Part shown: in pieces, positions 3,280 to 52,870 of the stretch | Position numbering within the stretch: the first letter of the stretch is position 1 | Layout of the letters: each line of letters begins with the position of its first letter | NCBI GenBank assembly: GCA_015146655.1 | Contig: VKHL01000063.1 | Location: forward strand, 94,993-158,992 | Length of the DNA: 64,000 bases | Direction: 5' to 3' | Origin: Ochromonas danica | Lineage: Eukaryota > Sar > Chrysophyceae > Chromulinales > Chromulinaceae | Notes under the pieces: generated by a model | Database searches by the model: none | The model's input: the letters and a program-made list of their open reading frames with translations, nothing else | What the model was told of the DNA's origin: nothing | Made by a program: the position numbers and the translations under genes

Positions 3280-4314
3280 ATGTCTGAGATGTTCCAGTCT
3301 GCTGATCAAGTTCACTCCTCCCAAGACAACAAGGTGGACACCTCTTCCTCTGAGAAAGAACCTTGTTTTGATCAAATTGAAGCTAATCGTTCTCTTTCCT
3401 CTTTGGACGAGGAAACGTCTTCCATCCCTTTGGTCAGTCTCTATTGGCAAAGGAAAGGAGATATTTTAGAGCATTTCTATAATAATAGCCACTGTTGCAA
3501 GTCTTCGCAGGGCTTTCTGTTGAAGGAAGATGTGACAGATGAGGAATTTAATGCTTTTGCTGAGGCCATGAAAGGATGCATACATCATGGTCTTTCTCCG
3601 CATTTTTCTCATGTCAAGAATGAAGTCTACATTCATGATATGGACTTGGTTTTCCATTCGCAGGTGATCAAAATCATTGATCATTTTGTTTGCTATGATT
3701 ATAATAAGCGCATCAATCAAGGAGACATGCTTAATCCCATTCATATCCATCCTCGAAGAACTCCTATAGCTTTTGCTGAGAATGCTATTCTCATTCCCGA
3801 TGCGGTGTATCATCATATGAACAACGATTTACTCTCTTTGATAGTGGAAGCAGGCTTTGCTGACAACATAGCTCATCTGCATCATGTTGTTCATGATATC
3901 TACATGAAGGATCCTAGAGTTCGAATGGCGATTGCCATTAAGATTGACTCCACACCTCACTTCGAGAATTCTGATGTAGCTATCCTCGCTCTTGTTTATT
4001 TACGTGAGGAAAGAAGGATAAATATACAAGTCGTTAATCTTGGGTCAATATGGCCGTGTCCTGAGTTGTCGAAACAACTTCAAGAAGTGGCAGAGCTTTC
4101 GCAAATACCTGTAATGTTGGGATGCAGCGAATTGGTTGTTCCATCCGCTGCGATGTTTCATGGTGCTGAGGCTGATTTAATACGTCGAATTGAAGCAGGC
4201 ACCCCAAACAATGAGCTGGACTGTTTGCTGAATGTGGAGACAATTCGAAGGGAATGTCTCGAAGGTTTTCGTTCATCCAAAGAACATTTTCTGCATGAGA
4301 CTGCAAAGTGTTAA
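3280..4314 (+). CDS. Possible PD-(D/E)XK nuclease-fold protein (Uma2-like architecture)
   Basis: Single-exon frame of 344 residues counted from the ATG at 3280; the open frame begins 18 bp earlier without an ATG. The middle third has the strand pattern of Uma2/restriction-endonuclease-fold proteins: a PDA with the D preceding a helix, then LIVEAGFADNIAHLHH, a helix, and a hydrophobic strand MAIAIKI. In this family the acidic residue of the first pair and the E of the EAG segment bind metal; the lysine normally directly after E is absent and may be replaced by the lysine in AIKI. Hence this is either a diverged nuclease or an inactive fold. A Ser/Glu-rich 60-residue N-terminus precedes it. No neighbour suggests a pathway. 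Confidence 0.4.
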   Translation: MSEMFQSADQVHSSQDNKVDTSSSEKEPCFDQIEANRSLSSLDEETSSIPLVSLYWQRKGDILEHFYNNSHCCKSSQGFLLKEDVTDEEFNAFAEAMKGCIHHGLSPHFSHVKNEVYIHDMDLVFHSQVIKIIDHFVCYDYNKRINQGDMLNPIHIHPRRTPIAFAENAILIPDAVYHHMNNDLLSLIVEAGFADNIAHLHHVVHDIYMKDPRVRMAIAIKIDSTPHFENSDVAILALVYLREERRINIQVVNLGSIWPCPELSKQLQEVAELSQIPVMLGCSELVVPSAAMFHGAEADLIRRIEAGTPNNELDCLLNVETIRRECLEGFRSSKEHFLHETAKC

Positions 4315-4908
4315 AAATGTCCTATTTGTTGTAGATCTTTAGTTCAAGACTAATGTTAATGTCAATATCATTTCAATCCTCTTGGCTAATTCACTGACTA
4401 AAGCATGTCACTTGACAAGTAATCCTTGGGAAGAGAACTAAAGCATGAGCTATGAAGCCTAAGACAGAAGAGCCAAAGACAGGTTGCAACAAGCAGAACA
4501 ATAACAATGGAGACAAGGGAGCAAGACACCGACATGTTAATTTACAGCCAGCAGTGATCTTTCCGAGTCAGTATAATAGAGAATCGCACACACTAAAACA
4601 ATGAGAAAAGAAGCGCTCAATCGCCTCAAATGAATCATTGCGACTTTAATGTCTGCGCAAACCTATCTCGACCACGATCATTTCGATTCAATGAGCTCAT
4701 ACCACAAGCAAGTCACAATAACCATTACCACCACACAACACAGAGCAGGACATTATAATTTGACGACACTTTGTCCTACTGTACTTTGGAAGCTGTTGAA
4801 TGGCAACGATAATGACGACAATGAAAACAGTGCCAAACAAGAGAAAAGGTGATCAAAGAAGCACAGGCCACAAGATGATGATGATGATGATGATTCGATA
4901 GCTTCCAA
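4315..4908. other. Intergenic region without recognised features
   Basis: Convergent spacer between the nuclease-fold gene and the kinase gene. It holds a short (GAT)n run near 4875-4897 just beyond the kinase stop codon. The 67-codon frame at 4649-4852 has no recognisable domain and I regard it as chance. Confidence 0.6.
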
Positions 4909-7900
4909 TTAGAAGTCCTTGTCCCAATTGCCATGATCAACATACCCATTGTCAACATGCTCCTCAACGGCATAAGGATCGAAATGAGAGGTATCTGTTA
5001 AAGAAGTAATCTTGGGGACCCAAGGAGCTTTCAATGTCTTATTGAAGACAGCATCAAAGTCGATGGTAGAGAACCACTTGTGAGTTTTGATATCCTCAAC
5101 GCCACCTTTCAAATTACCCAAACGAGTGTTTACTTCACGTGATAACAAACGCTTGACCAAATCCTGAATAACATATCAAAACAACAAACAAGCATAAGCA
5201 ACACACACACACACCACATACTAAACATACAAACAACATCTAACCTTGCAATCAGGAGGAAAGTTCTTAGGGAAGACCAAACGACCCGAGACGATATTCT
5301 TACAAATAACTACTTGATCATTATCATGAGGATCCAAGAAAGGACTGTAACCTGCTTGCATCTCATAAATGAGAATACCCAATGCCCAGTAATCCACAGC
5401 CTTTGTATGCCCACGAGCTAAGACAAGCTCTGGGGCAAGATATTCTGGTGTTCCACAAAGAGTATATGATTTCCCTGTAATCACTTTTGCAAAGCCAAAA
5501 TCGACTAACTTAGGATAACCAGCTTTATCAATAAGACAGTTCTCAGGCTTCATATCTCTATAGGCAATATCTTTTCCATGAAGATATTCTAAAGCCAATA
5601 GAATAACAGAAGCATAGAAGATAGCATGATGATTAGGAACACCATCTGAAGTATTTGTATGCAAGAGATTGAATAATTCTCCACCTTGAATAAATTCTAA
5701 CAACATATAAAGTTTCTTACTATCTTTATAAGTTTGATATAATTGTAGAATAAAAGGATGATTGGATGTGATCATAATATTCTTTTCATTGAGAATATTA
5801 GTCTGTTGCTTATTGGCAACAATCTCTGATTTCAATAATGCTTTCAAGGCATAGACATTATTCTTATTCTTCTTATCTTGTACTAAAGTAACACGACCAA
5901 AGGTACCTGATCCTAAGACACCTAAGGTAATCAAGTCAGTAAATGGGATATTTGTTAATTTCTTCTCTGGAGCTGGAAGATTTGTTGAAGAACTCTCTAA
6001 ACTCTTCTTTAAAATATCCCAACGTTGTTGTGTTTCAATACTCATGATATGTTGAATAGAGGAGAGGATTTGAATGAAAGCATCACGATCCAATACAAAG
6101 CAAACGACTTCAGAGATTGAGATCACATCTGCTTTACGTACATCATTATCTAATAGAGCCATCTCACCAAAATAAGAACCTGGTCGTAATTCACTGAGAA
6201 GAGAACGACTGCCATTCTTTTCTGCTTCGACTTTTGCTGTACCTTGTTTAATAATATAAAACTTCCTTCCTATTATTAACATCATCATCATAACATAAAG
6301 ACAAATTAACTTTATATCAGTATACTAAATAAACAACTATAACAACATCAACAAGGGAATAGAGTAGGGTATCATTCAGAGAAGAGATACCAGTAGATAG
6401 AGCAAACTGTATTGTTGTATAGGTTATTAAATACTATAGTAAAGGGCAAGAGGCAGGATGGTTTAGTGATAGGTGTGGGTCTAGTGTTAGCCAATGTTAT
6501 ACCCCCAACCACTTGGTGCATGCATGATACGGGCACACATCTACCCTCTTACCCAAACATGCATGGCATTGATGGACTGGACTACTCCAGACACACATAC
6601 TGACTAACTCATAGTAGTTAGCCATTAATACACAACAATACAACAACATGCAGTATCAAAATGACAAACAAACATCATCATAACAATGATTATCATCATC
6701 ATACCTTGTTCTCCTTGTTTAATAATAGTATACTCTGGTGGGAAAGATTCAATAACCATTGCTTGTGATACACGCATTATCTCTTGTTTATTTAACTTCT
6801 CAAAGAGTTTAATAGATTTTAAAATACGAATATTCATATTATGATCTAATAACTCTCTTAAAGGACCTAATAGAGTATTAAATGCTTCTCGATCTAATGC
6901 TAATAACTTTACATGAGATTGTGCTGTAATGGTTGCAGCACGTGGTTCTCCTGTAATCAATGCACGTTCACCAAAATAATCTCCTGTTGTTAATGTATGA
7001 TCTGCAAAGGATGCTCCAACATCTGATACTAAGACAGTACCTTCTTTAATCATATAGAAGACATTTCCTTCTGATCCTTTACGAATAATCACATCACCTG
7101 TATTATATGGAAAGATTTCCACACTATCAGCTACTTTATCTAATTGTTCTTCTGTTAACTCTTGTAATAGAGGAACATGTGATAAAGCTCTCTTGATTTC
7201 AATAGCACGATTTGATGAACTTTGTGCTACAACAAGCTTGTATGTCTCACGATCCAAAGAGAAGACGACAGAGTCATTATCAGCTTGAATAGTTGCTTGA
7301 CGTGGAGAGTTATAAATCAAAGCAAGTTCACCAAAGGAATTACCAGGTGATAGTTTAGCAACAGTCTTCTTATCAACAATGACAGTAAATTGTCCAGATT
7401 CAATCACATAGAAGTATCGTCCTTCCTCTCCTTGAGTGATGATATTCTCACCGGCAGAGACAGAGACAGCTTCCATTGTTAGAGCGAGCTCATGAACATC
7501 TTGCTCGGTTAGTGAGGTGAAGATGTAGTTCTGACTCAGTGCAGACACTATCATTATTATCATAATCATCCCGTAGCATCACCAGCACGACAACACAGTC
7601 CAAGACAGACAGAGAGAAGAGAGAGAAACAGCCACAGAGTCATTGACATAGACACACAGGGAAGAGAGAGAAAGGGTTAGTCAGTTTGTCATTGAGACAG
7701 GCAAGATTACAGCAGAGGAAGAGGAAGAGATAGCGAGATAGAGAGGTGGTCTACCCTCTACCTTATACTACTGTTACTACAGTGTTCTATTACTTGGTGT
7801 ACACTACCTCCCTTACTACCCGACCATTGATAGCACACACACATACACTCACAACATATACACAGCCATAGTGGAGAGAGATCCCTCACCTAACATCTTC

Positions 7901-15456: not shown

Positions 15457-18400
15457 CGCGCTCTACCTGTCAGCCACCTGCCAGGACGACGAAAAGAGGT
15501 GGATGGTCTACTTCTCTAACTTTTGGAGTTAAAAGTCTAACTTGGACCGAAAGTCCCAACCACTCCAACCTTAACAAGTGCTGGTGGAGAAAACAATGAA
15601 GAGAAGATGTCAACTGTTGCTATGCTCACAATTAATTGCCTTCGATTGATCTGTAAGAGATGACATCTACTATTACGAAAGACCCTTCTGAAGAAGAGAA
15701 GCAAGAAAATATCGTCGTCTCACCCAGTGATGAGAAGGATAAACCCAATCGTGCATCATTCAGTCAGGTGAGAATTATTCTCTCTTCGACTCACACACAG
15801 TGGCATACTTATTGCTTTTTGGATGCGTTCGTAGACGTTCAGCAATGCGGATCAATATGACTACCTCCTCATGTTTCTGGGCACAGCTGGTGCCTTAACT
15901 GTGGGGTGCTCCACGCCCGTCTCCAATGTCGTGTTTGGGAAGATACTTGATGCTCTCAATAAGAACCCTGATACCTTCTCCGACAAAGTGAATATTCTAT
16001 GTATTGCTTATGTCATCATAGGTGTGGTTAACTTGCTTGCGGGCTACCTGCAAGTCTATTGTTGGACTGCTACTGGTGAGCGCCAAACCCAACGTTTCCG
16101 TGCACGTTATGTCAATGCATTACTATCCCAAGAGATTGGATGGTTTGATACCATTGGCGCTGGACAATTGAATACAAAGGTGGCAGATGTGATTGGAGAA
16201 ATACAAGATGGTATGGGCAGAAAGATCGCAGACCTCATGCAGAATAGTATTCAAGTGATTGGCTCCCTGGTAGTTGCTTTCTATCTTTGCTGGGAACTTA
16301 CTCTAGTTCTTTTGGCTTGCATTCCTTGCTTAGCCTTAGCGACAACATACATGGTCAAGGTAAGTCTTCCTGTCTTCCGCCTGCTACCAGTGTTATGACT
16401 TATTATGTATGTGACACCATGCATGATGTGTGTTTAGACTGTCGCAGCTGCAACTCATCAAGCTTTTGAACAGTATGCTCAAGCAGGAGCCGTGGCACAG
16501 GAAGCTCTAGGATCTGTCCGCACAGTCAATGCATTCAACTTACAGCCAACTTTCATTGCCAAATATCGAAAGTTCGTTATGGAAGCCTTAAGGGTTGGTG
16601 TAATCAAAGGTGCCAACGTGGGTCTGGGAAATGGAGCTGTCTTTGGCGTAGCCTTCCTTACTTACGCACTGGGCTTCTGGTATGGTGCTCGTTTGGTGGC
16701 TCATGACATCGAGCATGACTGCACGGGGAACGATTGTATTACTGGAGGAAATGTCATCTCAGTCTTCTTCTGTGTTGTGTTAGGCTCTATGGCTCTTGGC
16801 CAAATAGCTGGTCCTCTATCCGCTTTTGTTAGTGCACAATCCTCTATTGCCATTATCTTCGACCTCTTGGAGAGGAAACCTCTTATTGATGGCCTCAGTG
16901 ATGACGGACTCATTCCCCCAAAACCTCTGAATGGAACGATTGCTCTCAAAGACATTTCCTTCGCCTACCCGTCACGTCCTGATATCATGGTTAGTGATCG
17001 AATGTCTCTTGACATCTCACATGGCGAGACTGTGGCTCTTGTTGGGTCTTCAGGCTGTGGGAAGAGCACTATCATCAACCTATTGCTTCGTTTCTATGAT
17101 CCAGTTGAAGGAAACATCGCCCTGGATGGTCATGATTTACGTTCTTTGAATATCAAATATCTGCGTTCATTGATTGGATATGTGGGTCAGGAGCCTGTGC
17201 TATTTGCAGGAACCATTGGAGACAATATTGCATATGGACTCGATCCTCAAGAACGTGCATCCATGTCGGAGGACCACTTAGCAGGACGCATTGAAGAAGC
17301 TGCCAAGGCTGCCAACGCCCACGACTTCATCATGTCCTTCCCTCAAGGCTATAAAACAGATGTTGGAGGAAGTGGATCTTCCTTGTCTGGAGGTCAGAAG
17401 CAGCGCATCGCCATAGCACGTGCTCTTATCAAAAAGCCTGCTATTCTATTACTTGACGAAGCTACCTCAGCACTGGACATCAACTCTGAGAAGGTGGTAC
17501 AAGCTAGCATCGACCAACTCAGTCAAGCGAAGACTCAAACAACCATCATTGTTGCTCATCGATTGAGTACGATTGTCAATGCAGATCGTATCTGTGTACT
17601 GAGAGATGGCCACATCGTGGAACAGGGTCGACACACAGACCTCATACAAATACCCAATGGTGTCTATGCAGATCTTGTGCGTATGCAGATGCTGTCTGGT
17701 GAAGGGGAGGAGAATGATTCTCCACTTCCTGAAGCTAGTAGACCAGAGATGGTCGAGCCAGAATTAGTCGAGGAAAGGAAAAGCCTGAGGCTTGCAGTGG
17801 ATGATGCTATCGAACCCTCACCATCTGCCAAGGCTCCACAGGAAAGTAAACAACAACAAGTTGCTAGTACCATTTCCAAAGATGAGAAACGACAACTCGT
17901 TCGACGAGTCTTGGCAATGGTCAGACAATATCCAGGTTATGCCACAGTGGGATTAATTGGTGCCGCTTTCTTTGGTGCCATCTTCCCATGTAAGCATCCT
18001 CTTGCCATACATTTACTATACATTCATATGCTAATAATCATTGCGACTGATTAACATGATGATGTAGGCTGGGGATACATGCTGTCCAAAACACAAGCTG
18101 CTTTATATTTATCTGATCCAGATGAAGTGGAAGATCGTGCTCGTCTTTATTCTTTTCTCTATATCATGTTGGCAGGGGTTTCTTTCTTCAGTTCATTGGC
18201 AATGTATTATGGAGTCATTGCCGTGGGTGAACATGTAGCAATGGTGATGCGATCAACTTTGTTTGAGTCATTCTTCCATCACCCAGTCGCTTTCTTCGAC
18301 CAGCCCGAACATTCTGTGGGAACACTCACATCCCAATTATCTGACGATACAAGAGTTATCTCCAAGGCTCTTGGTGAGAGCTTTGCAAGACAGTTGCAGG

Positions 18401-20499
18401 CCATGTCTACCTTGTTGGTAGCATTAGGTCTAGGCTTTAGTTCTTCCTGGCAGATTGCCTTCATCGTCCTCGCTTCCTTCCCACTGACTATTGCAGCGGG
18501 TGTCGTTCAAATGTCTGCCATGAGAGGAATGCAGTAAGTTATCTCTCCATATCCATACGATGATACAGTGCATGTTACTTACCCATTCTATCATAGGTAT
18601 GACGATGAAGCTGATGAGAAAACAGAAGACTCTACGAAAGAGAAGAAGAAGCAATTAACCGACAAAGGGGCTAGTGCTCAAGGAAAGGTCAAGACAGATA
18701 GTAATCAAAACGGAAAAGCAGCATCTAGCACCAAGCCAGAGGGCAGTGTTATGGCTGGTAGTCATAGTGCTGTTCTGGGCGTCGCCTTTGTCAATATGCG
18801 CACTGTGGCTGCATTCTCTATGCAACACAAAGTAGCCACGCATTATGCCCAATTGACTGAGCGGATTATGGAGAAGAGAATTGGTCGCAGTGTGGTGGCA
18901 GGATTAGGATTTGGTGCATCCTATACAAGTCGCTTCCTCACTTATGCATTACTCTTTTGGGCTGGATCACGGTTTATTAAGGATGGCTCCATTACTTTTG
19001 GTGATCTTATGGGTGCCATCACGACCCTTATGGTTGGTGCTACAGGCCTTGGCCAAGCATTAAGTGACATGGGAGATCAAGCAAAAGGCACTGAATCAGC
19101 CAAACGTATCTTTAAAGCTATTGATTCTGCCAATGCTTCCACTATTGACGGATTGTCACCTAACAAGGGGTTGGTTCTTTTGCATGATAAACAAGAACCA
19201 AGTGCTTGTGATGTAAGTGCTCTTCAACCAAACGAACTCCAAGAATTGACAGGCAAGATTGAACTTCGCAATCTCTCCTTCCATTATCCCTCTCGTCCAG
19301 ATATCCCTGTCTGCAAGGGTTATAACCTTACCATTGCTCCAGGAGAGGTGATAGCCTTTGTTGGACCGTCAGGATCGGGTAAGAGCACTATCATCAATCT
19401 GCTGCTGCGCTTCTATGATCCTGATGAAGGAAGCATTCTCATCGACAATTGGGATATCAAGGATCTCAACGTGCGTTATTTACGATCTCAGATTGGTTTT
19501 GTTGGCCAAGAGCCGGTTCTCTTCTCTGGTACTGTGGAAGATAATCTGAACTATGGCCGCTATGAGGTGAACTTCTCTGCTGTGCTTCCTCCCTCTGAAG
19601 CCTTGCTCCAAGCTCGTCAGCAACAGCTTCGTAGTAATGATTCTTCCATTGCCTCTTGTTGGCGTTGGATGGCTCACCAGAACCACGAGCATAAACCAAT
19701 ACCACTAGAGCAAGAGCAGGAACATGATGTAGAAGATGCAAAAGAACAATCCAGGGATGGCGTACCAGCTGATCTGATAGAAGCTGCCAAGTTCGCCCAT
19801 GCACACTCTTTTATAACTGACTTCTCTGATGGATACCGAACCACAGTGAGTACTATGGGGTCAGGCTATATGATCTCCGGTGGACAGAAGCAACGTATTG
19901 CTCTAGCACGTGCGATGCTGAAGCGACCTAAGATCCTCCTTCTCGATGAGGCCACAAGTGCTTTGGATGCACAGTCTGAGAACCTCATCCAACAGTCCAT
20001 CGATGAGCTTACACAACGCCATGGGAATGATCCCCTTCCTGGTCTAATCCAGACACGTCCCACGGTTATCATTGTGGCCCATCGCTTGAGCACCATCGTC
20101 AGTGCTGATCGTATTGTCGTCATCGACCAGGGAGAGATCAAGGAGGTGGGACCCCACGAAGAGCTCATGGCTAAAGCGGACGGCATTTACCGTCAACTCT
20201 ACCTCAAGCAATCTCAAGGAGGCAAACCTTGAATGGATATACTCCTTGAACTCAAGAACTTTATGTGAAATCCGATCATTGATGATCAGGAGTTCAATCA
20301 TGTGCGTAATATTGTTCAGGATTGATAAAGTCTCTTGTGCCAACATAGTCTAGTGGAAACAGCTCAAGTTGTCTATCAGCTGTAGTGAATTGAATATGAA
20401 AAGCTATCAATAGAGAGAAATAACAGCAACTTGTAATGTAATTTTGAAGTGTTTACGAAGATTATTAGTTGAGCGATGGCCATAGTCTCACCATGTCTT
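15457..20499 (+). repeat. Left arm of a large inverted repeat carrying an ABCB gene
   Basis: This ~5 kb segment is repeated in inverted orientation at about 24984-29985. Across the whole transcribed region (15660-20232 against 29822-25250) paired coordinates always add up to 45482, so no indel exists in 4.57 kb, introns included. I see only a handful of substitutions, including four synonymous ones clustered at 18706-18842. Upstream of the start codon the match continues to about 15457 but with indels, including about 45 bp present only here. The right edge is at the CACCATGTCTT sequence near 20499. Between copy b (15176) and 15456 I see nothing else. Confidence 0.92.
15660..20232 (+). CDS. 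ABCB-type full transporter (P-glycoprotein-like), copy 1
   Basis: Five exons: 15660-15767, 15835-16359, 16438-17989, 18068-18533 and 18597-20232, all GT-AG and in phase, giving 1428 residues. Order is TMD1-NBD1-TMD2-NBD2. NBD1 has Walker A GSSGCGKST (414-422), LSGGQKQR (527) and ILLLDEATSALD (547). NBD2 has GPSGSGKST (1140-1148), ISGGQKQR (1310) and ILLLDEATSALD. Both halves look catalytically complete. Two insertions are unusual: about 50 charged residues inside TMD2 after MRGMQ, and about 65 Gln/Glu-rich residues (1207-1272) between Walker A and signature of NBD2. ABCB full transporters export hydrophobic compounds or lipids; the substrate is unknown. Confidence 0.95.
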
Positions 20500-24985: not shown

Positions 24986-27900
24986 ACATGGTGAGACTAT
25001 GGCTATCGCTCAACTAATAATCTTCGTAAACACTTCAAAATTACATTACAAGTTGCTGTTATTTCTCTCTATTGATAGCTTTTCATATTCAATTCACTAC
25101 AGCTGATAGACAACTTGAGCTGTTTCCACTAGACTATGTTGGCACAAGAGACTTTATCAATCCTGAACAATATTACGCACATGATTGAACTCCTGATCAT
25201 CAATGATCGGATTTCACATAAAGTTCTTGAGTTCAAGGAGTATATCCATTCAAGGTTTGCCTCCTTGAGATTGCTTGAGGTAGAGTTGACGGTAAATGCC
25301 GTCCGCTTTAGCCATGAGCTCTTCGTGGGGTCCCACCTCCTTGATCTCTCCCTGGTCGATGACGACAATACGATCAGCACTGACGATGGTGCTCAAGCGA
25401 TGGGCCACAATGATAACCGTGGGACGTGTCTGGATTAGACCAGGAAGGGGATCATTCCCATGGCGTTGTGTAAGCTCATCGATGGACTGTTGGATGAGGT
25501 TCTCAGACTGTGCATCCAAAGCACTTGTGGCCTCATCGAGAAGGAGGATCTTAGGTCGCTTCAGCATCGCACGTGCTAGAGCAATACGTTGCTTCTGTCC
25601 ACCGGAGATCATATAGCCTGACCCCATAGTACTCACTGTGGTTCGGTATCCATCAGAGAAGTCAGTTATAAAAGAGTGTGCATGGGCGAACTTGGCAGCT
25701 TCTATCAGATCAGCTGGTACGCCATCCCTGGATTGTTCTTTTGCATCTTCTACATCATGTTCCTGCTCTTGCTCTAGTGGTATTGGTTTATGCTCGTGGT
25801 TCTGGTGAGCCATCCAACGCCAACAAGAGGCAATGGAAGAATCATTACTACGAAGCTGTTGCTGACGAGCTTGGAGCAAGGCTTCAGAGGGAGGAAGCAC
25901 AGCAGAGAAGTTCACCTCATAGCGGCCATAGTTCAGATTATCTTCCACAGTACCAGAGAAGAGAACCGGCTCTTGGCCAACAAAACCAATCTGAGATCGT
26001 AAATAACGCACGTTGAGATCCTTGATATCCCAATTGTCGATGAGAATGCTTCCTTCATCAGGATCATAGAAGCGCAGCAGCAGATTGATGATAGTGCTCT
26101 TACCCGATCCTGACGGTCCAACAAAGGCTATCACCTCTCCTGGAGCAATGGTAAGGTTATAACCCTTGCAGACAGGGATATCTGGACGAGAGGGATAATG
26201 GAAGGAGAGATTGCGAAGTTCAATCTTGCCTGTCAATTCTTGGAGTTCGTTTGGTTGAAGAGCACTTACATCACAAGCACTTGGTTCTTGTTTATCATGC
26301 AAAAGAACCAACCCCTTGTTAGGTGACAATCCGTCAATAGTGGAAGCATTGGCAGAATCAATAGCTTTAAAGATACGTTTGGCTGATTCAGTGCCTTTTG
26401 CTTGATCTCCCATGTCACTTAATGCTTGGCCAAGGCCTGTAGCACCAACCATAAGGGTCGTGATGGCACCCATAAGATCACCAAAAGTAATGGAGCCATC
26501 CTTAATAAACCGTGATCCAGCCCAAAAGAGTAATGCATAAGTGAGGAAGCGACTTGTATAGGATGCACCAAATCCTAATCCTGCCACCACACTACGACCA
26601 ATTCTCTTCTCCATAATCCGCTCAGTCAACTGGGCATAATGTGTGGCTACTTTGTGTTGCATAGAGAATGCAGCCACAGTGCGCATATTGACAAAGGCAA
26701 CGCCCAGAACAGCACTATGACTGCCAGCCATAACACTGCCCTCTGGCTTGGTGCTAGATGCTGCTTTTCCGTTTTGATTGCTATCTGTCTTGACCTTTCC
26801 TTGAGCACTAGCCCCTTTGTCGGTTAATTGCTTCTTCTTCTCTTTCGTAGAGTCTTCTGTTTTCTCATCAGCTTCATCGTCATACCTATGATAGAATGGG
26901 TAAGTAACATGCACTGTATCATCGTATGGATATGGAGAGATAACTTACTGCATTCCTCTCATGGCAGACATTTGAACGACACCCGCTGCAATAGTCAGTG
27001 GGAAGGAAGCGAGGACGATGAAGGCAATCTGCCAGGAAGAACTAAAGCCTAGACCTAATGCTACCAACAAGGTAGACATGGCCTGCAACTGTCTTGCAAA
27101 GCTCTCACCAAGAGCCTTGGAGATAACTCTTGTATCGTCAGATAATTGGGATGTGAGTGTTCCCACAGAATGTTCGGGCTGGTCGAAGAAAGCGACTGGG
27201 TGATGGAAGAATGACTCAAACAAAGTTGATCGCATCACCATTGCTACATGTTCACCCACGGCAATGACTCCATAATACATTGCCAATGAACTGAAGAAAG
27301 AAACCCCTGCCAACATGATATAGAGAAAAGAATAAAGACGAGCACGATCTTCCACTTCATCTGGATCAGATAAATATAAAGCAGCTTGTGTTTTGGACAG
27401 CATGTATCCCCAGCCTACATCATCATGTTAATCAGTCGCAATGATTATTAGCATATGAATGTATAGTAAATGTATGGCAAGAGGATGCTTACATGGGAAG
27501 ATGGCACCAAAGAAAGCGGCACCAATTAATCCCACTGTGGCATAACCTGGATATTGTCTGACCATTGCCAAGACTCGTCGAACGAGTTGTCGTTTCTCAT
27601 CTTTGGAAATGGTACTAGCAACTTGTTGTTGTTTACTTTCCTGTGGAGCCTTGGCAGATGGTGAGGGTTCGATAGCATCATCCACTGCAAGCCTCAGGCT
27701 TTTCCTTTCCTCGACTAATTCTGGCTCGACCATCTCTGGTCTACTAGCTTCAGGAAGTGGAGAATCATTCTCCTCCCCTTCACCAGACAGCATCTGCATA
27801 CGCACAAGATCTGCATAGACACCATTGGGTATTTGTATGAGGTCTGTGTGTCGACCCTGTTCCACGATGTGGCCATCTCTCAGTACACAGATACGATCTG

Positions 27901-29985
27901 CATTGACAATCGTACTCAATCGATGAGCAACAATGATGGTTGTTTGAGTCTTCGCTTGACTGAGTTGGTCGATGCTAGCTTGTACCACCTTCTCAGAGTT
28001 GATGTCCAGTGCTGAGGTAGCTTCGTCAAGTAATAGAATAGCAGGCTTTTTGATAAGAGCACGTGCTATGGCGATGCGCTGCTTCTGACCTCCAGACAAG
28101 GAAGATCCACTTCCTCCAACATCTGTTTTATAGCCTTGAGGGAAGGACATGATGAAGTCGTGGGCGTTGGCAGCCTTGGCAGCTTCTTCAATGCGTCCTG
28201 CTAAGTGGTCCTCCGACATGGATGCACGTTCTTGAGGATCGAGTCCATATGCAATATTGTCTCCAATGGTTCCTGCAAATAGCACAGGCTCCTGACCCAC
28301 ATATCCAATCAATGAACGCAGATATTTGATATTCAAAGAACGTAAATCATGACCATCCAGGGCGATGTTTCCTTCAACTGGATCATAGAAACGAAGCAAT
28401 AGGTTGATGATAGTGCTCTTCCCACAGCCTGAAGACCCAACAAGAGCCACAGTCTCGCCATGTGAGATGTCAAGAGACATTCGATCACTAACCATGATAT
28501 CAGGACGTGACGGGTAGGCGAAGGAAATGTCTTTGAGAGCAATCGTTCCATTCAGAGGTTTTGGGGGAATGAGTCCGTCATCACTGAGGCCATCAATAAG
28601 AGGTTTCCTCTCCAAGAGGTCGAAGATAATGGCAATAGAGGATTGTGCACTAACAAAAGCGGATAGAGGACCAGCTATTTGGCCAAGAGCCATAGAGCCT
28701 AACACAACACAGAAGAAGACTGAGATGACATTTCCTCCAGTAATACAATCGTTCCCCGTGCAGTCATGCTCGATGTCATGAGCCACCAAACGAGCACCAT
28801 ACCAGAAGCCCAGTGCGTAAGTAAGGAAGGCTACGCCAAAGACAGCTCCATTTCCCAGACCCACGTTGGCACCTTTGATTACACCAACCCTTAAGGCTTC
28901 CATAACGAACTTTCGATATTTGGCAATGAAAGTTGGCTGTAAGTTGAATGCATTGACTGTGCGGACAGATCCTAGAGCTTCCTGTGCCACGGCTCCTGCT
29001 TGAGCATACTGTTCAAAAGCTTGATGAGTTGCAGCTGCGACAGTCTAAACACACATCATGCATGGTGTCACATACATAATAAGTCATAACACTGGTAGCA
29101 GGCGGAAGACAGGAAGACTTACCTTGACCATGTATGTTGTCGCTAAGGCTAAGCAAGGAATGCAAGCCAAAAGAACTAGAGTAAGTTCCCAGCAAAGATA
29201 GAAAGCAACTACCAGGGAGCCAATCACTTGAATACTATTCTGCATGAGGTCTGCGATCTTTCTGCCCATACCATCTTGTATTTCTCCAATCACATCTGCC
29301 ACCTTTGTATTCAATTGTCCAGCGCCAATGGTATCAAACCATCCAATCTCTTGGGATAGTAATGCATTGACATAACGTGCACGGAAACGTTGGGTTTGGC
29401 GCTCACCAGTAGCAGTCCAACAATAGACTTGCAGGTAGCCCGCAAGCAAGTTAACCACACCTATGATGACATAAGCAATACATAGAATATTCACTTTGTC
29501 GGAGAAGGTATCAGGGTTCTTATTGAGAGCATCAAGTATCTTCCCAAACACGACATTGGAGACGGGCGTGGAGCACCCCACAGTTAAGGCACCAGCTGTG
29601 CCCAGAAACATGAGGAGGTAGTCATATTGATCCGCATTGCTGAACGTCTACGAACGCATCCAAAAAGCAATAAGTATGCCACTGTGTGTGAGTCGAAGAG
29701 AGAATAATTCTCACCTGACTGAATGATGCACGATTGGGTTTATCCTTCTCATCACTGGGTGAGACGACGATATTTTCTTGCTTCTCTCCTTCAGAAGGGT
29801 CTTTCGTAATAGTAGATGTCATCTCTTACAGATCAATCGAAGGCAATTAATTGTGAGCATAGCAGGACAATCTCAAGGTTGGAGTGATTGGGACTTTTGG
29901 TCCAAGTTAGACTTTTAACTCCAAAAGTTAGAGAAGTAGACCATCCACCTCTTTTCGTCGTCTTGTCGCGTGCCAGGTAGAGCGT
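24984..29985 (-). repeat. Right arm of the large inverted repeat carrying an ABCB gene
   Basis: Reverse complement of about 15457-20499. Colinear without indels through the transcribed region; the outer edge lies about 100 bp before the UreF gene and is more diverged than the rest. The inner edge abuts the compound fold-back palindrome. Confidence 0.92.
25250..29822 (-). CDS. ABCB-type full transporter (P-glycoprotein-like), copy 2
   Basis: Mirror image of copy 1. Exons on the minus strand: 29715-29822, 29123-29647, 27493-29044, 26949-27414 and 25250-26885; 1428 residues. From the translated exons I find one amino-acid difference, residue 12 Glu to Gly (SEEEK against SEGEK), plus a few silent changes. 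All NBD motifs, both insertions and all splice sites are kept, so both genes should be functional. The start codon lies 266 bp from the divergent UreF gene; about 160 bp of upstream sequence is shared with copy 1, so basal promoters may be partly the same. Confidence 0.95.
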
Positions 29986-47126: not shown

Positions 47127-48740
47127 TTATCGCTGTTTGGTCCAGTGATGAGATTCTTTATTAAAACGATAGTGTTGGTTTCGAGATGATCTAATATAAC
47201 CTTCTTTCAGAGTAGAAGGCCATTTCACCTTCTCATCCAGTAGCAAACCATCCAACATCTCTTCCGAAACACTCTCAGCCATTTCCAGGCGAATCTTGCA
47301 TAGGCTAGAAAGCTTCGATACTGCCACCAGACTCTCCAATCCAGGACATCGTATGACTAAACTCTCAATCGACTCACAGTTCTTGATCAACTCAGTCAAC
47401 ATTGAATCAGAAATGTTGAACAACCAGGGAAAAGTTGATGGCGTATGCAACTTTGTCAGACTCCTCGCATGCTCTGTGATAGCTGCCAAAGTAGCATCAG
47501 TGTTCGGGTCAGCACTGAAATGCAACAAATGCAAACAATTCAAATGGGGAAGATCTCGCAGGAGAGAGATCAAGCAGGGCTGAACTGGGGAAGATTCTAA
47601 GGTAATCTGATAGGGTTCTAATAGAGGCTTCAGAATCTCCACTGGCATATAGTGGACACTGTTCTGTCTTAAAGTCACTTCCTTGTACTGTCTTCTTCTC
47701 AATACATGAGACAAGCACACAGTCCAGTCATCATTGGATCCTTCCACCTCTATAGTCACAGAGCTGTTCTCATTGCATGTCTGGATAGTGTCTGTAATGA
47801 CCACATCAAGGAGATGTGGGCATTGTTCAAAGAGACGACGAAGATTCTCTGTGCTACATATGCTAAGACCGGAGATTTCCAAGCTAGTCAACTTTGGACA
47901 TGATGTGAACAATGTCACCACTAAATCATCTATGTCAGATGAGTCCCGTTCGCCGCAGCTAATCTTCAATATCTCCAACAATTATCCTGTTGATGAGAGA
48001 TAAGACATGAAGGAAGCCATATTATGTAAATACTCGCAATCTGTGCAGGCATTCAATGCTCTCAGACGAATTCTATTCTCAATGAGAGTGGATATGATTA
48101 AATCTATTCCCTTTCCATCCATTATTGAAATATGGAGATCTCGTAAGCTGGAGGCATGCTTTCGGAGGAGGTTTGCTACCATCACATGACATTCTTCATA
48201 GCTTTCGATATCTTGTAGAGAGAATTTGATCAGAGAATTCTCTCTCAACTTCTCTACCAATACTTCCATCACTACATCACTAAGCTGCTTAGCTTGTCTG
48301 TCTGTATTCATCCATACTGTCACTCCTTCTAGATTATGACAATGACTCAAGAACACTGACAGATTGCTCTTCAATTGATCTTCCTTACAGAGGTCAGATG
48401 CTGTGCTTGTATCGATCTCAATAGATCGAAGAGCAGGACAGTAGGATTCCATGATGTCCAATCCTCCTCCCACAAGATCTTCTAAAACACTCACACTAAC
48501 AGGAAACCCTTCCGCATACAATACCTTGCGATTCACCAGCCACATAGAGAATATTCTCATTTTATCATCAGAAAGACTCACATCACCTCTTGATATCCTA
48601 ATGTCAGTCAAGGAGGACAGCCAAGCTTCTCGATGATTCTTCTCAACACAGGCTACATCCAACCTTGCCAGATCCTCCCATCCCAACCACTCTCCATAAA
48701 CACTGCGAAGAATATCTTTAGGCATCCACATAATACTCAT
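47127..48740 (-). pseudogene. LRR-like family copy e with one premature stop
   Basis: Reads from MSIMWMPKDILRSVYGEWLG to the normal family C-terminus (HHWTKQR) in one frame of 538 codons, except for a single TAA at 47982-47984. Intact copies have GAA or an equivalent there (TGEWLEVL against TG-stop-LLEIL), so one base change explains the stop. All else is intact: F-box-like N-terminus, leucine-rich section, LLLDEKVKWPST. Either a very young pseudogene, a polymorphism, a read-through case or a sequencing error. Confidence 0.85.
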
Positions 48741-50535: not shown

Positions 50536-52428
50536 TTACTTTACTAGGGGAACTAGGCTGATTTTGATAAATTTGTGGCCGTTTGAGTCAGTAGTATTAA
50601 CCGAGAAAACACGCTTTTTAATACCAGAATCATTAGTACTATTTTGAAAAGCTATGGCTTGGTTCTCATGATTGAAATAGACTTCCAATGTTGATTGAAC
50701 TCTCATCATGTCCATCAATTGTGTGAGGAAATGTGGATGTGGATGTTCGTACCGGGTACTGTTGCCAGTAATAATAAATCGTTTGGTATTAATTCTTCTA
50801 AAATACCAAGTGTTGTTGATATAATGAGAATTATAGCTTCCATGATGAGGAATAACTGCTATCTCAAATTTGGTATCCTTGAAATCTGATTTTTCAATCG
50901 CATCAACGAGAATATCACAATCAACATCACCTGTTAGTAAAATATGCTTTGCTGCTCGAGGTGCTGCATAGCTTACAACCAAAACAATAGACATATTGTT
51001 GATCTTTTTGGAATTATCTTCCCTGTAATTCCTGAAGAAGAATTCTGCATTTGGCCAGAGAACGGTAACTTTGGTTTTGTTGTCAATATACTCTTTCTTT
51101 GGTTCTGGGTACTCTGTGCCAAACTCTGAATTCTCCAAGGTATCAGCAGGAATATCATCTGAGATAATGATGGGAGGGACTTTTTCCTTGATCTGTGCAT
51201 ACTTCATTAGCACATCGTGTGCCTGTTTCTTCGAACGTGTTGGAATAGCGGGGGGAGAAGGAGGAGGGAGGGCGATGGGAGAAATACAAGGATTCAGCCA
51301 CAGTTCATCAATCACGTCCAGACAATTACTTTTAGCCATTTTGTCGAAGCCACCAATATGATCATCGTCAGAGTGAGTGCAGATAGCCAAATGTAACTTA
51401 ATTCTTCCCAGTACAGCGTTCCATGCATTCGTAAATCCGGCACTCTTGCTGCTGTCCACTAGAATGTTGTGGAAGTCATCACCAGTTACAATCAGAAAAC
51501 AATCAGCAGAACCATTTGAAGGAAAAGAATAGAACGCAAAAGAATCCTCTGTCAAAGGAAGTCCTGGAAGATTCTTATTCAATATTGATGCTCTGTGCCC
51601 CGATTCATAGAGCTGAAACAAGCTCGTATTTGAAGAAGGATCCCATCCATCCTCAGGGAGTAAATACTTCATGAGAAGATTATCTTTTGCTTCAACAGGA
51701 AGTTTATCTATTTTAATGGCATGGATTCGCAGACCCACTTGTGCGAATAACATTTTGCTATATTCTTCATTTGTTAAATGTGAGTATTCTTCGCCGCTTG
51801 CGTGCAGTTGAACTAAAGCACCGCTTCCAGAACTTCTCTTCGTCGTTGCTATTTCTATACATTTAGTTGAATAGCAACAATTTAGATATAATTCGCCTTG
51901 CTTGTTACCAACACATTCTTTAAATTCCTCAATAGAGAGATAGTTTGAGTCACTATCCTCATCACTATAACTCAAATCCCACGATCCGTTAGCATTCGCA
52001 TGTCCACCATAATAAACTGTGATATAGCTACAAGGAGCAGACAACACATTCTTGACTCGATATTGGGGTGGATCAATCAAAATAAACACATCTGTTTTCA
52101 CAGTTGCTTCAGGAAAAATAATTTGTTTGTGTAGTTCGCAAGGATAAGGAGAGGGGATGTTGTCCAATAGTTCTGATGGTACTCGTAGCTTCTTAAGTCC
52201 GGCAAGAATATCGTCGTCATACTCAGACAAACCAGAAACAATAATAACAGCACGTGCCACAGATGCAAAGTGTGCATAGAAGAACTGAGACAAGCTCGTA
52301 TTTGAAGGATCCCATCCATTCTCGGAGAATAAATACTTCAAGAGAGGATTATGTTCTGCTTCAACACGAAGTTTAGCTTTTTCAATGGCAAGGACTTGCA
52401 TCGGACAATCTCTTCTCGCCACAACCAC
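50536..52428 (-). CDS. Caspase-like domain fused to ComEC-type metallo-beta-lactamase domain
   Basis: Open frame of 630 codons on the minus strand; the first in-frame ATG is Met10. Residues ~58-200 look like a caspase (C14) fold: hydrophobic strand RAVIIVSG, strand DVFILID, ITVYYGGHANANG with the putative catalytic His143, an acidic loop, SIEEFKECV, and ELYLNCCYS with putative Cys184/185. Residues ~278-560 are an MBL domain: strand HLAICTHSDDDHIGGFD with His352, Asp356 and His357 of the HxxxDH motif, later LLTGDVDCD and VIPHHGSYNSHY, as in ComEC/Rec2-type hydrolases. A spacer (NLLMKYLLPEDGWDP) joins them. Plausible as a proteolytic plus phosphodiesterase-like effector; function is not established. 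No signal peptide or membrane segment. The gene lies between two parts of a duplicated CCDC146/gene-H module. Confidence 0.72.
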   Translation of the reverse strand: MVVARRDCPMQVLAIEKAKLRVEAEHNPLLKYLFSENGWDPSNTSLSQFFYAHFASVARAVIIVSGLSEYDDDILAGLKKLRVPSELLDNIPSPYPCELHKQIIFPEATVKTDVFILIDPPQYRVKNVLSAPCSYITVYYGGHANANGSWDLSYSDEDSDSNYLSIEEFKECVGNKQGELYLNCCYSTKCIEIATTKRSSGSGALVQLHASGEEYSHLTNEEYSKMLFAQVGLRIHAIKIDKLPVEAKDNLLMKYLLPEDGWDPSSNTSLFQLYESGHRASILNKNLPGLPLTEDSFAFYSFPSNGSADCFLIVTGDDFHNILVDSSKSAGFTNAWNAVLGRIKLHLAICTHSDDDHIGGFDKMAKSNCLDVIDELWLNPCISPIALPPPSPPAIPTRSKKQAHDVLMKYAQIKEKVPPIIISDDIPADTLENSEFGTEYPEPKKEYIDNKTKVTVLWPNAEFFFRNYREDNSKKINNMSIVLVVSYAAPRAAKHILLTGDVDCDILVDAIEKSDFKDTKFEIAVIPHHGSYNSHYINNTWYFRRINTKRFIITGNSTRYEHPHPHFLTQLMDMMRVQSTLEVYFNHENQAIAFQNSTNDSGIKKRVFSVNTTDSNGHKFIKISLVPLVK

Positions 52429-52870
52429 TTTCAGCAGCTGTAGCTGCCATTTCTGTCCATTTGTTAGAATAGCAACAGTTTAGATATAATTCGCCTTGCT
52501 TGTTATCAACACACTCTTTAAATTCCTCAAATGAGAGATAGTTGGAGTCACTGTCCTCATCACTATAACTCAAATCCCACGATCCGTTAGCATTCGCATG
52601 TCCACCATAATAAACTGTGATATTGCTACAAGGAGCAGACAACACTTCCTTCACTCGATATTGGGGTGGATCAATCAAAATAAACACATCTGTTTTCACA
52701 GTTTCTCCACGAAAAATAATTTGTTTGTGTAGTTCGCTAGGATAAGGAGAGGGGATGTTGTCCAATAGTTCTGCTGATACTCGTAGCTTGTCAAATCCGA
52801 GTAGAACATCAGAATCACACATAATCAAACCAGAAACAATAATAACAACACGTGCTTCTTTAAGCGACAT
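52382..52870 (-). pseudogene. Extra upstream caspase-like module, frameshifted from the caspase-MBL frame
   Basis: Begins with ATG (MSLKEARVVIIVSG) and repeats the caspase-like module at about 80-90% identity: VFILIDPPQYRV, ITVYYGGHANANG, FEEFKECV, ELYLNCCYS. After NKWTEMAATAAES the frame diverges and stops, while the downstream frame begins with the matching KAKLRVEAEHNPLLKYLF spacer. About 30 residues present in the second module (LHASGEEYSHLTNEEYSK) are deleted here, producing the shift. The gene may originally have had two caspase-like modules before the MBL domain, with this start codon as its true start. A 49-bp GT...AG stretch could restore the frame but would be shorter than other introns here. 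Confidence 0.6.

Follow-up and report, generated by a model that had tools for sequence, protein, structure and literature searches.

The window analysed here, a 64,000-nucleotide stretch of contig VKHL01000063.1 from Ochromonas danica, carries on its minus strand a gene whose caspase-like and metallo-beta-lactamase (MBL) parts are fused within one open frame. This frame occupies positions 52428-50536, with 630 open codons, or 647 when counted between the flanking stops. GGHANANG with His143 (52002-52000) and LNCCYS with Cys184/185 (51879-51874) were found in its N-terminal half, followed by the MBL motifs THSDDDH (residues 351-357; 51378-51358), LTGDVD with Asp501 (50928-50926) and PHHGS with His528/529 (50847-50842). 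The first-pass annotation, which was made from the sequence alone, had assigned all five motifs to a single frame, and the 630-codon frame bears this out. The span 50536-52870, to which it assigned the fusion, is divided between two frames, as a second caspase-like copy is located in a different frame at 52870-52382.

Alignment of the DNA with itself gave an architecture of a caspase-like domain plus linker in tandem duplicate, then a single MBL domain, all on the minus strand; the duplication was absent from the first-pass annotation. Caspase-like copy 1 (52466-52855; His91 and Cys132/133) lies in the 162-codon frame 52870-52382 and was recognized by its 79-80% protein identity to copy 2. Copy 2 (51868-52257) was assigned by its motifs and by similarity to the caspase-like part of a sister gene on another contig, described below. 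Linker repeat 1 (RVEAEHNPLLKYLFSENGWDPSNTSL; 52279-52398) aligns to linker repeat 2 (PVEAKDNLLMKYLLPEDGWDPSSNTSL; 51601-51732), and the MBL-fold hydrolase domain occupies 50539-51543. The two frames overlap at 52382-52428, which marks a frame break between the caspase-like copies; the fusion is independent of this break because copy 2 and the MBL domain share one frame. Between the two copies, 130 compared codons show 10 synonymous and 25 non-synonymous differences, and an identical 60-base block surrounds the His motif. The synonymous rate (dS) is 0.13 and the non-synonymous rate (dN) 0.087, a dN/dS of 0.68, which points to a recent duplication and to little constraint between the copies. Several dozen bases that follow LNCCYS in copy 2 are missing from copy 1. 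Around the break we counted 15 in-phase GT..AG pairs of 22-130 bases, which is neither rarer nor commoner than expected, and therefore one such pair proves no splice. GT..AG introns read by eye in neighbouring genes (sodium/hydrogen exchanger, kinase and CFAP58) measure 68, 74 and 81 bases, with one of several hundred. The break could be a splice, a frameshift or an assembly indel.

The same fusion order recurs in a second gene of this genome, on the contig labelled C54 (C54, C66 and C99 denote contigs of the same genome, which comprises 31.19 Mb in 337 contigs). Across the genome the Avs1a profile found the window gene and one other place, C54:113399-114451, while the LmuA profile found these two and a weak LACTB2-like match. 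The C54 gene lies in an 891-codon frame, whose stop follows an ATG at a distance of about 806 codons, and it encodes a caspase-like part (YCGHGCSHG, LNCCYA) followed by an MBL part (GDC, DGG, THGDGDH, SGDAD, LPHHGS) matched by LmuA at 1.5e-28. Aligned with the window gene, the caspase-like parts scored 64 against a shuffle mean of 32 (z 6.6) and the MBL parts 99 against 36 (z 13.3), with none of 500 shuffles as high in either case. Over the aligned region the two genes are 25% identical (49/196), with 4 of 12 residues shared around the His and 5 of 9 around the Cys. As this second, strongly diverged gene has the same order, the fusion is no accident of the window locus. Single-protein searches of the genome found no third fusion gene, although this is a weak test, as the C54 and window proteins miss each other.

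In bacteria, the MBL nucleases of the defence group are described as pro-enzymes opened by a partner protease, one of these being a caspase, and a caspase complex has been shown by experiment to activate one such MBL pro-nuclease (PMC12799240). The system in question, canu (Tuck et al. 2025), is presented there as three separate genes for the caspase CanA, CanB and the MBL pro-nuclease CanC (PMC12799240). The MBL half of the window gene matched the PADLOC profiles LmuA (5.2e-24), RTasMBL (1.3e-19) and Avs1a (9.6e-14) and the NCBIfam profiles Avs1a (1.2e-19), 6A-MBL (1.2e-9) and ComEC_Rec2 (1.3e-5). None of these matches reached the curated cut-offs. For Avs1a (cut-off 420 bits) the window and C54 proteins scored 70.3 and 62.5 bits, and two canu MBLs and HamM likewise fell below it at 215-243 bits. 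The metal motifs of defence MBLs (HxDxDH, GDxD or GDxH, and HHGS) are all present.

Among plasmids, five records matched, of which three were examined. Two of them, L004 from Rhizobium and L005 from Sinorhizobium, carry a caspase gene (Pfam Peptidase_C14 at 1.1e-7 and 1.6e-11, respectively), an unknown gene and an MBL gene, and the third, L003, is a Hachiman locus carrying an MBL gene. At least 51 loci with MBL relatives were found in the bacterial genome scan and two in viral contigs. The best among the matches listed in the bacterial scan is L006 (E 9e-17), where the gene upstream, unnamed by Pfam, was found by a four-row CanA profile at 1.2e-8. When a CanA-type profile was run over the 56 loci L003-L058, five of them (L004, L005, L006, L038 and L043) proved to have a full gene and L019 a fragment. 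A viral or phage origin was considered and rejected, since no relative of the full protein appeared among phage records or viral contigs with the thresholds applied, nor one of the caspase-like part among the viral contigs. The 56 loci also include other arrangements. The MBL neighbour in L049 has a Pfam CHAT match (3.2e-6) and homologues by phmmer in L031, L021, L037 and L018, and these five loci may represent a CHAT variant of canu, judging from their sequences. A defence-group MBL gene adjoins a subtilase gene, one more protease family as neighbour, in L008 (1062-4390). The MBL of L022 (4714-10303) adjoins a 1113-amino-acid protein that contains the trypsin-type motif GFSGGP and what looks to the eye like a P-loop; this MBL is preceded by a 416-amino-acid open reading frame (ORF) that is HNH-like by eye.

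In a tree of 55 MBL rows (328 columns), seven ComEC rows and L013 were split from the 47 others with support of 100/99. The window and C54 proteins are on the defence side, where they form successive branches at the base (99/81 and 98/81). Both branches are long (2.36 and 2.85), and the two were sisters in none of 200 bootstrap trees. A first tree, built without C54, paired the window row with L022 (81/57), under a long-branch warning, and again left ComEC outside. L040 was omitted from the first tree and L040, L034 and L050 from the second, and the 55-row tree has no non-defence eukaryotic MBLs. These comparisons support the membership of both proteins in the defence MBL group. They lend no support to a common origin of the two fusion genes. 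The MBL domain had been called ComEC-type in the first-pass annotation; this label does not fit as it stands, as the anti-phage profiles score far better than ComEC_Rec2 and ComEC falls outside in the tree. An ordinary MBL of this genome, LACTB2-like by eye, sits elsewhere, on C66.

PMC12799240 describes two gating loops with a conserved Gly in canu, where mutation of either loop site abolishes defence. We compared the corresponding segments as numbers of residues between conserved anchors in the 55 aligned rows, labelling Lamassu, Avs1 and Hachiman rows from ORF layout by eye (a Hachiman annotation is present in L003 only). Loop 1, from the metal motif to a Pro, has 101 residues in the window protein and 100 in C54, compared with 47-68 in the seven ComEC rows and 77-118 in the 28 labelled defence rows. 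Gate 2, from this Pro to an Asn, has 18 residues in the window protein and 33 in C54, compared with 9-18 in ComEC, 45-82 in the labelled groups and 56-66 in five canu-caspase rows. Other alignments place the anchor at Pro441, whereupon the window segments become 83 and 35 residues, respectively; whichever anchor is taken, the first segment exceeds that of ComEC in length, and the second falls short of those in the labelled defence groups. Thus, of the two gating insertions of canu, the first is present and gate 2 is short in both proteins. The 18 unlabelled rows range from 66 to 145 residues in the first segment and from 13 to 84 in the second, with short second segments also in L022 (28) and in L007, L008 and L032 (38-43). 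The distance from the metal Asp to HHGS is 26 residues in the window protein, 22-35 in the 53 rows from elsewhere and 76 in C54, which has an extra insertion at this third place (L065, about 3340-3085). The loop-1 insertion of the window protein, at approximately 51079-51291, includes a proline-rich stretch at residues about 382-401 and is a candidate cleavage region.

The setting of the gene is eukaryotic, as the first-pass annotation had it: the window neighbours are intron-split and belong to eukaryotic families, namely a cyclic-nucleotide-binding kinase, CFAP58, a sodium/hydrogen exchanger and ABC transporters. The named neighbours of the C54 gene are a protein with Teneurin-type EGF repeats, glutamine synthetase III, an M14 carboxypeptidase and a trypsin, the last three of which are families that also occur in bacteria. 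G+C content is 0.38-0.40 in the fusion frames, inside the range of six window genes (0.35-0.47). The codon-usage distance is 0.25 for the 630-codon frame and 0.26 for the C54 frame, inside the range of 0.18-0.41 for these six genes, which belong to their own reference, and 0.48, outside that range, for the short 162-codon frame; one CFAP58 piece, translated in a wrong frame, was disregarded here. Elsewhere in the window, ORFs of 520 and 554 amino acids occur at 16492-20232 (plus strand) and again at 25250-28990 (minus strand) with equal lengths and spacing, which suggests an inverted duplication; the plus-strand pair consists of ABC-transporter parts. Two adjoining ORFs at 47127-48740 (minus strand) are F-box/leucine-rich-repeat-like by eye and had no convincing match in Pfam.

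Our tentative interpretation, which we hold at slightly less than even confidence, is that the gene is a eukaryotic cis-fused counterpart of the bacterial pairs of protease and MBL pro-nuclease, canu-like in composition. The C-terminal MBL domain would be a metal-dependent nuclease, restrained by the loop inserted after the first metal motif, and the caspase-like domain, present as two tandem copies in the window gene and as one in C54, would be the activating cysteine protease. As no sensor was noticed in either gene, the protease would probably be switched on by clustering, or by a partner sensing damage or infection. It would then cut the loop-1 insertion in the same or a neighbouring chain, this being the simplest model because protease and MBL share one chain, and the proline-rich stretch would be a likely exposed cut site. 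The cut could free a DNA-degrading enzyme and so lead to cell death or arrest. Protease activity, loop cleavage, nuclease activity and a role in cell death are all proposed by analogy with the bacterial systems. In the first-pass annotation it was suggested that one of the two domains controls its partner; this is in accord with the findings of PMC12799240 on separate bacterial proteins, and for a fusion it holds by analogy only.

A number of results weigh against this interpretation, and most of them concern the caspase-like half. Profile searches identified only the MBL half of the two that the first-pass annotation had named: neither the window nor the C54 caspase-like half had a protease match in Pfam, NCBIfam, PADLOC or PDB sequences. 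In the window protein the residue after the His is Ala and not Gly. Against CanA, the window copies gave an hhalign probability of 0.2% and scored like shuffles (137 of 500 as high, and 60 of 400 and 200 of 400). C54 fared better against the Sinorhizobium CanA, where its score was equalled by 1 of 500 shuffles (0 of 400 with other bounds), than against the Rhizobium CanA (35 of 500 and 9 of 400). However, in the best alignment to the Sinorhizobium protein LNCCY lies opposite a CanA cysteine outside DACR, so that the likeness of C54 to CanA lies in the His region, and the Cys motif draws its backing solely from being conserved in both fusion genes of the genome. With C54 added, the hhalign probability rose to 34%, over 17 columns confined to the His motif. 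Five- and six-row CanA profiles placed C54 above all 300 shuffles, on a match of some 30 residues around the His motif, and 4 of 300 shuffles exceeded it with a two-row profile. In 20 bacterial genomes with MBL relatives, a three-row profile had no match at E <= 0.01 (2 of 20 at E <= 1). The distance from His to Cys is 41/42 residues in window copy 2, 37/38 in C54 and 51 in two bacterial CanA caspases. Taken together with the short gate 2, its dependence on the anchor in the window protein, the long and separate MBL branches and the dN/dS between the tandem copies, these results reduce our confidence, which is lowered above all because the catalytic cysteines of C54 and CanA are unpaired and gate 2 is anchor-dependent. 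They also bear on the possibility that the N-terminal half is caspase-like in appearance only, being another alpha/beta domain or a scaffold without activity. The protein would then be an MBL hydrolase whose additional domain serves regulation or binding, and no proteolysis would take place. The missing profile matches, the His-Ala, the shuffle-like scores of the window copies and the unpaired cysteines all favour this account. Yet the His and LNCCY motifs are kept across two genes at 25% identity, and the partner MBL belongs to a group that bacteria pair with caspases, and we regard this account as less likely than the main one, if still a serious contender. By eye, the half runs strand-helix-strand-helix-strand(His)-helix-strand(Cys). 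Clan CD peptidases have the same order, with their His and Cys following hydrophobic strands. Three more specific identities were tried and rejected. Peptidase C14 had no match genome-wide at E <= 0.001, CHAT had a single weak match elsewhere (C99, E 9.4e-4) that is under the cut-off, and a bridge through the bacterial CHAT-type MBL neighbours of L049 and L021 showed no similarity to the caspase-like part. The C99 match (L072, about 3935-5625) is a CHAT-like stretch followed in another frame by an NB-ARC-type P-loop-like region (by eye), possibly, from its sequence, a further caspase-type module tied to a STAND-like ATPase.

The tandem copies also admit the explanation that the locus is in decay, a frameshifting deletion after the duplication having severed copy 1 and left a relic or a shortened protein. 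The frame break, the several dozen bases missing from copy 1, the unremarkable frequency of GT..AG pairs at the break beside the intron lengths of the neighbours, and the dN/dS of 0.68 are in line with such a history. We consider it improbable, as the frame with copy 2 and the MBL domain is open with its metal and dyad residues all intact, the C54 gene is open with a single caspase-like copy, and a true intron or an assembly indel could also explain the break. Less probable still is a housekeeping, MAP1-like or ComEC-like hydrolase whose resemblance to Avs1a and LmuA merely reflects general MBL likeness. C54 is barely above the Pfam cut-off for MBL_MAP1B (37.9 against 37.6 bits), the window gate 2 has ComEC length with one anchor, and both proteins branch off basally within the defence clade, with long branches, in a tree that has no non-defence eukaryotic MBLs; on the other hand, the LmuA, RTasMBL and Avs1a scores are far above that of ComEC, the ComEC rows fall outside at 100/99, and the loop-1 insertion is of defence size. 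Bacterial contamination of the assembly, finally, would accommodate the bacterial origin of the matches, in searches that covered bacterial, plasmid, viral and phage collections. For the window it is in practice refuted by the intron-split neighbours of eukaryotic families, and it has hardly any likelihood overall, given the C54 neighbour with Teneurin-type EGF repeats, the G+C content of both genes and the codon usage of their 630- and 891-codon frames within the window-gene range, and the distance of the bacterial homologues (19-41% identity over matched segments among the matches listed).

If the interpretation as a cis-fused pro-nuclease is correct, a bacterial protease-activated DNase module is present in a eukaryote as one gene. 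A more general proposal, which we put forward with clearly greater doubt, is that some eukaryotes use a single-chain caspase-nuclease in which clustered caspase-like domains would cut the gate of their own MBL DNase, as a switch for cell death or against invaders that has two of the parts of canu and takes one cut instead of two. If the main interpretation holds, the fusion would connect the caspase-based defence of bacteria with a programmed destruction of DNA in eukaryotes that is separate from the apoptotic caspase/CAD route. It would also provide a clean test system, with protease, gate and nuclease in one chain, for which the C54 sister gene is a natural variant with one caspase-like domain and a different loop.

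Our search of a PMC library found no eukaryotic caspase-MBL fusion, and among the sources it returned, pairs of caspase and nuclease are treated only in PMC12799240, for bacteria; its main text, in the six places listed, refers to eukaryotes for comparison or in reference titles. Compared with known systems, the MBL domain resembles that of ComEC/Rec2 in its metal motifs and, with one of two anchors, in the short Pro-Asn segment of the window protein, but ComEC is outside in the tree and loop 1 is longer here. The caspase-like half resembles Peptidase C14 and CHAT (clan CD) in its hydrophobic strand-His and strand-Cys and in the order of strands and helices by eye, and differs in the missing profile match and in the His-Ala of the window protein. 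The trypsin-linked MBL pro-nucleases of Hachiman, AVAST type 1, Lamassu and DRT provide the best profiles of the MBL half and share its loop-1 length; in contrast to them, no trypsin-like domain was found here by any profile search. With canu, as described in PMC12799240 and judged by sequence, the gene shares an MBL of the defence group, joined here to a half that carries caspase-like His/Cys motifs, and an insertion after the first metal motif, and canu-type loci are among the nearest bacterial relatives of the window MBL among the matches listed. The differences are that CanA has a C-terminal Ig-like fold in that description (PMC12799240), whereas in the window gene the caspase-like domain is duplicated, gate 2 is short and the caspase-like half is unmatched to CanA. 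In contrast to the separate genes of canu, both domains are encoded here as a single polypeptide, in one frame, in two genes of a eukaryote.

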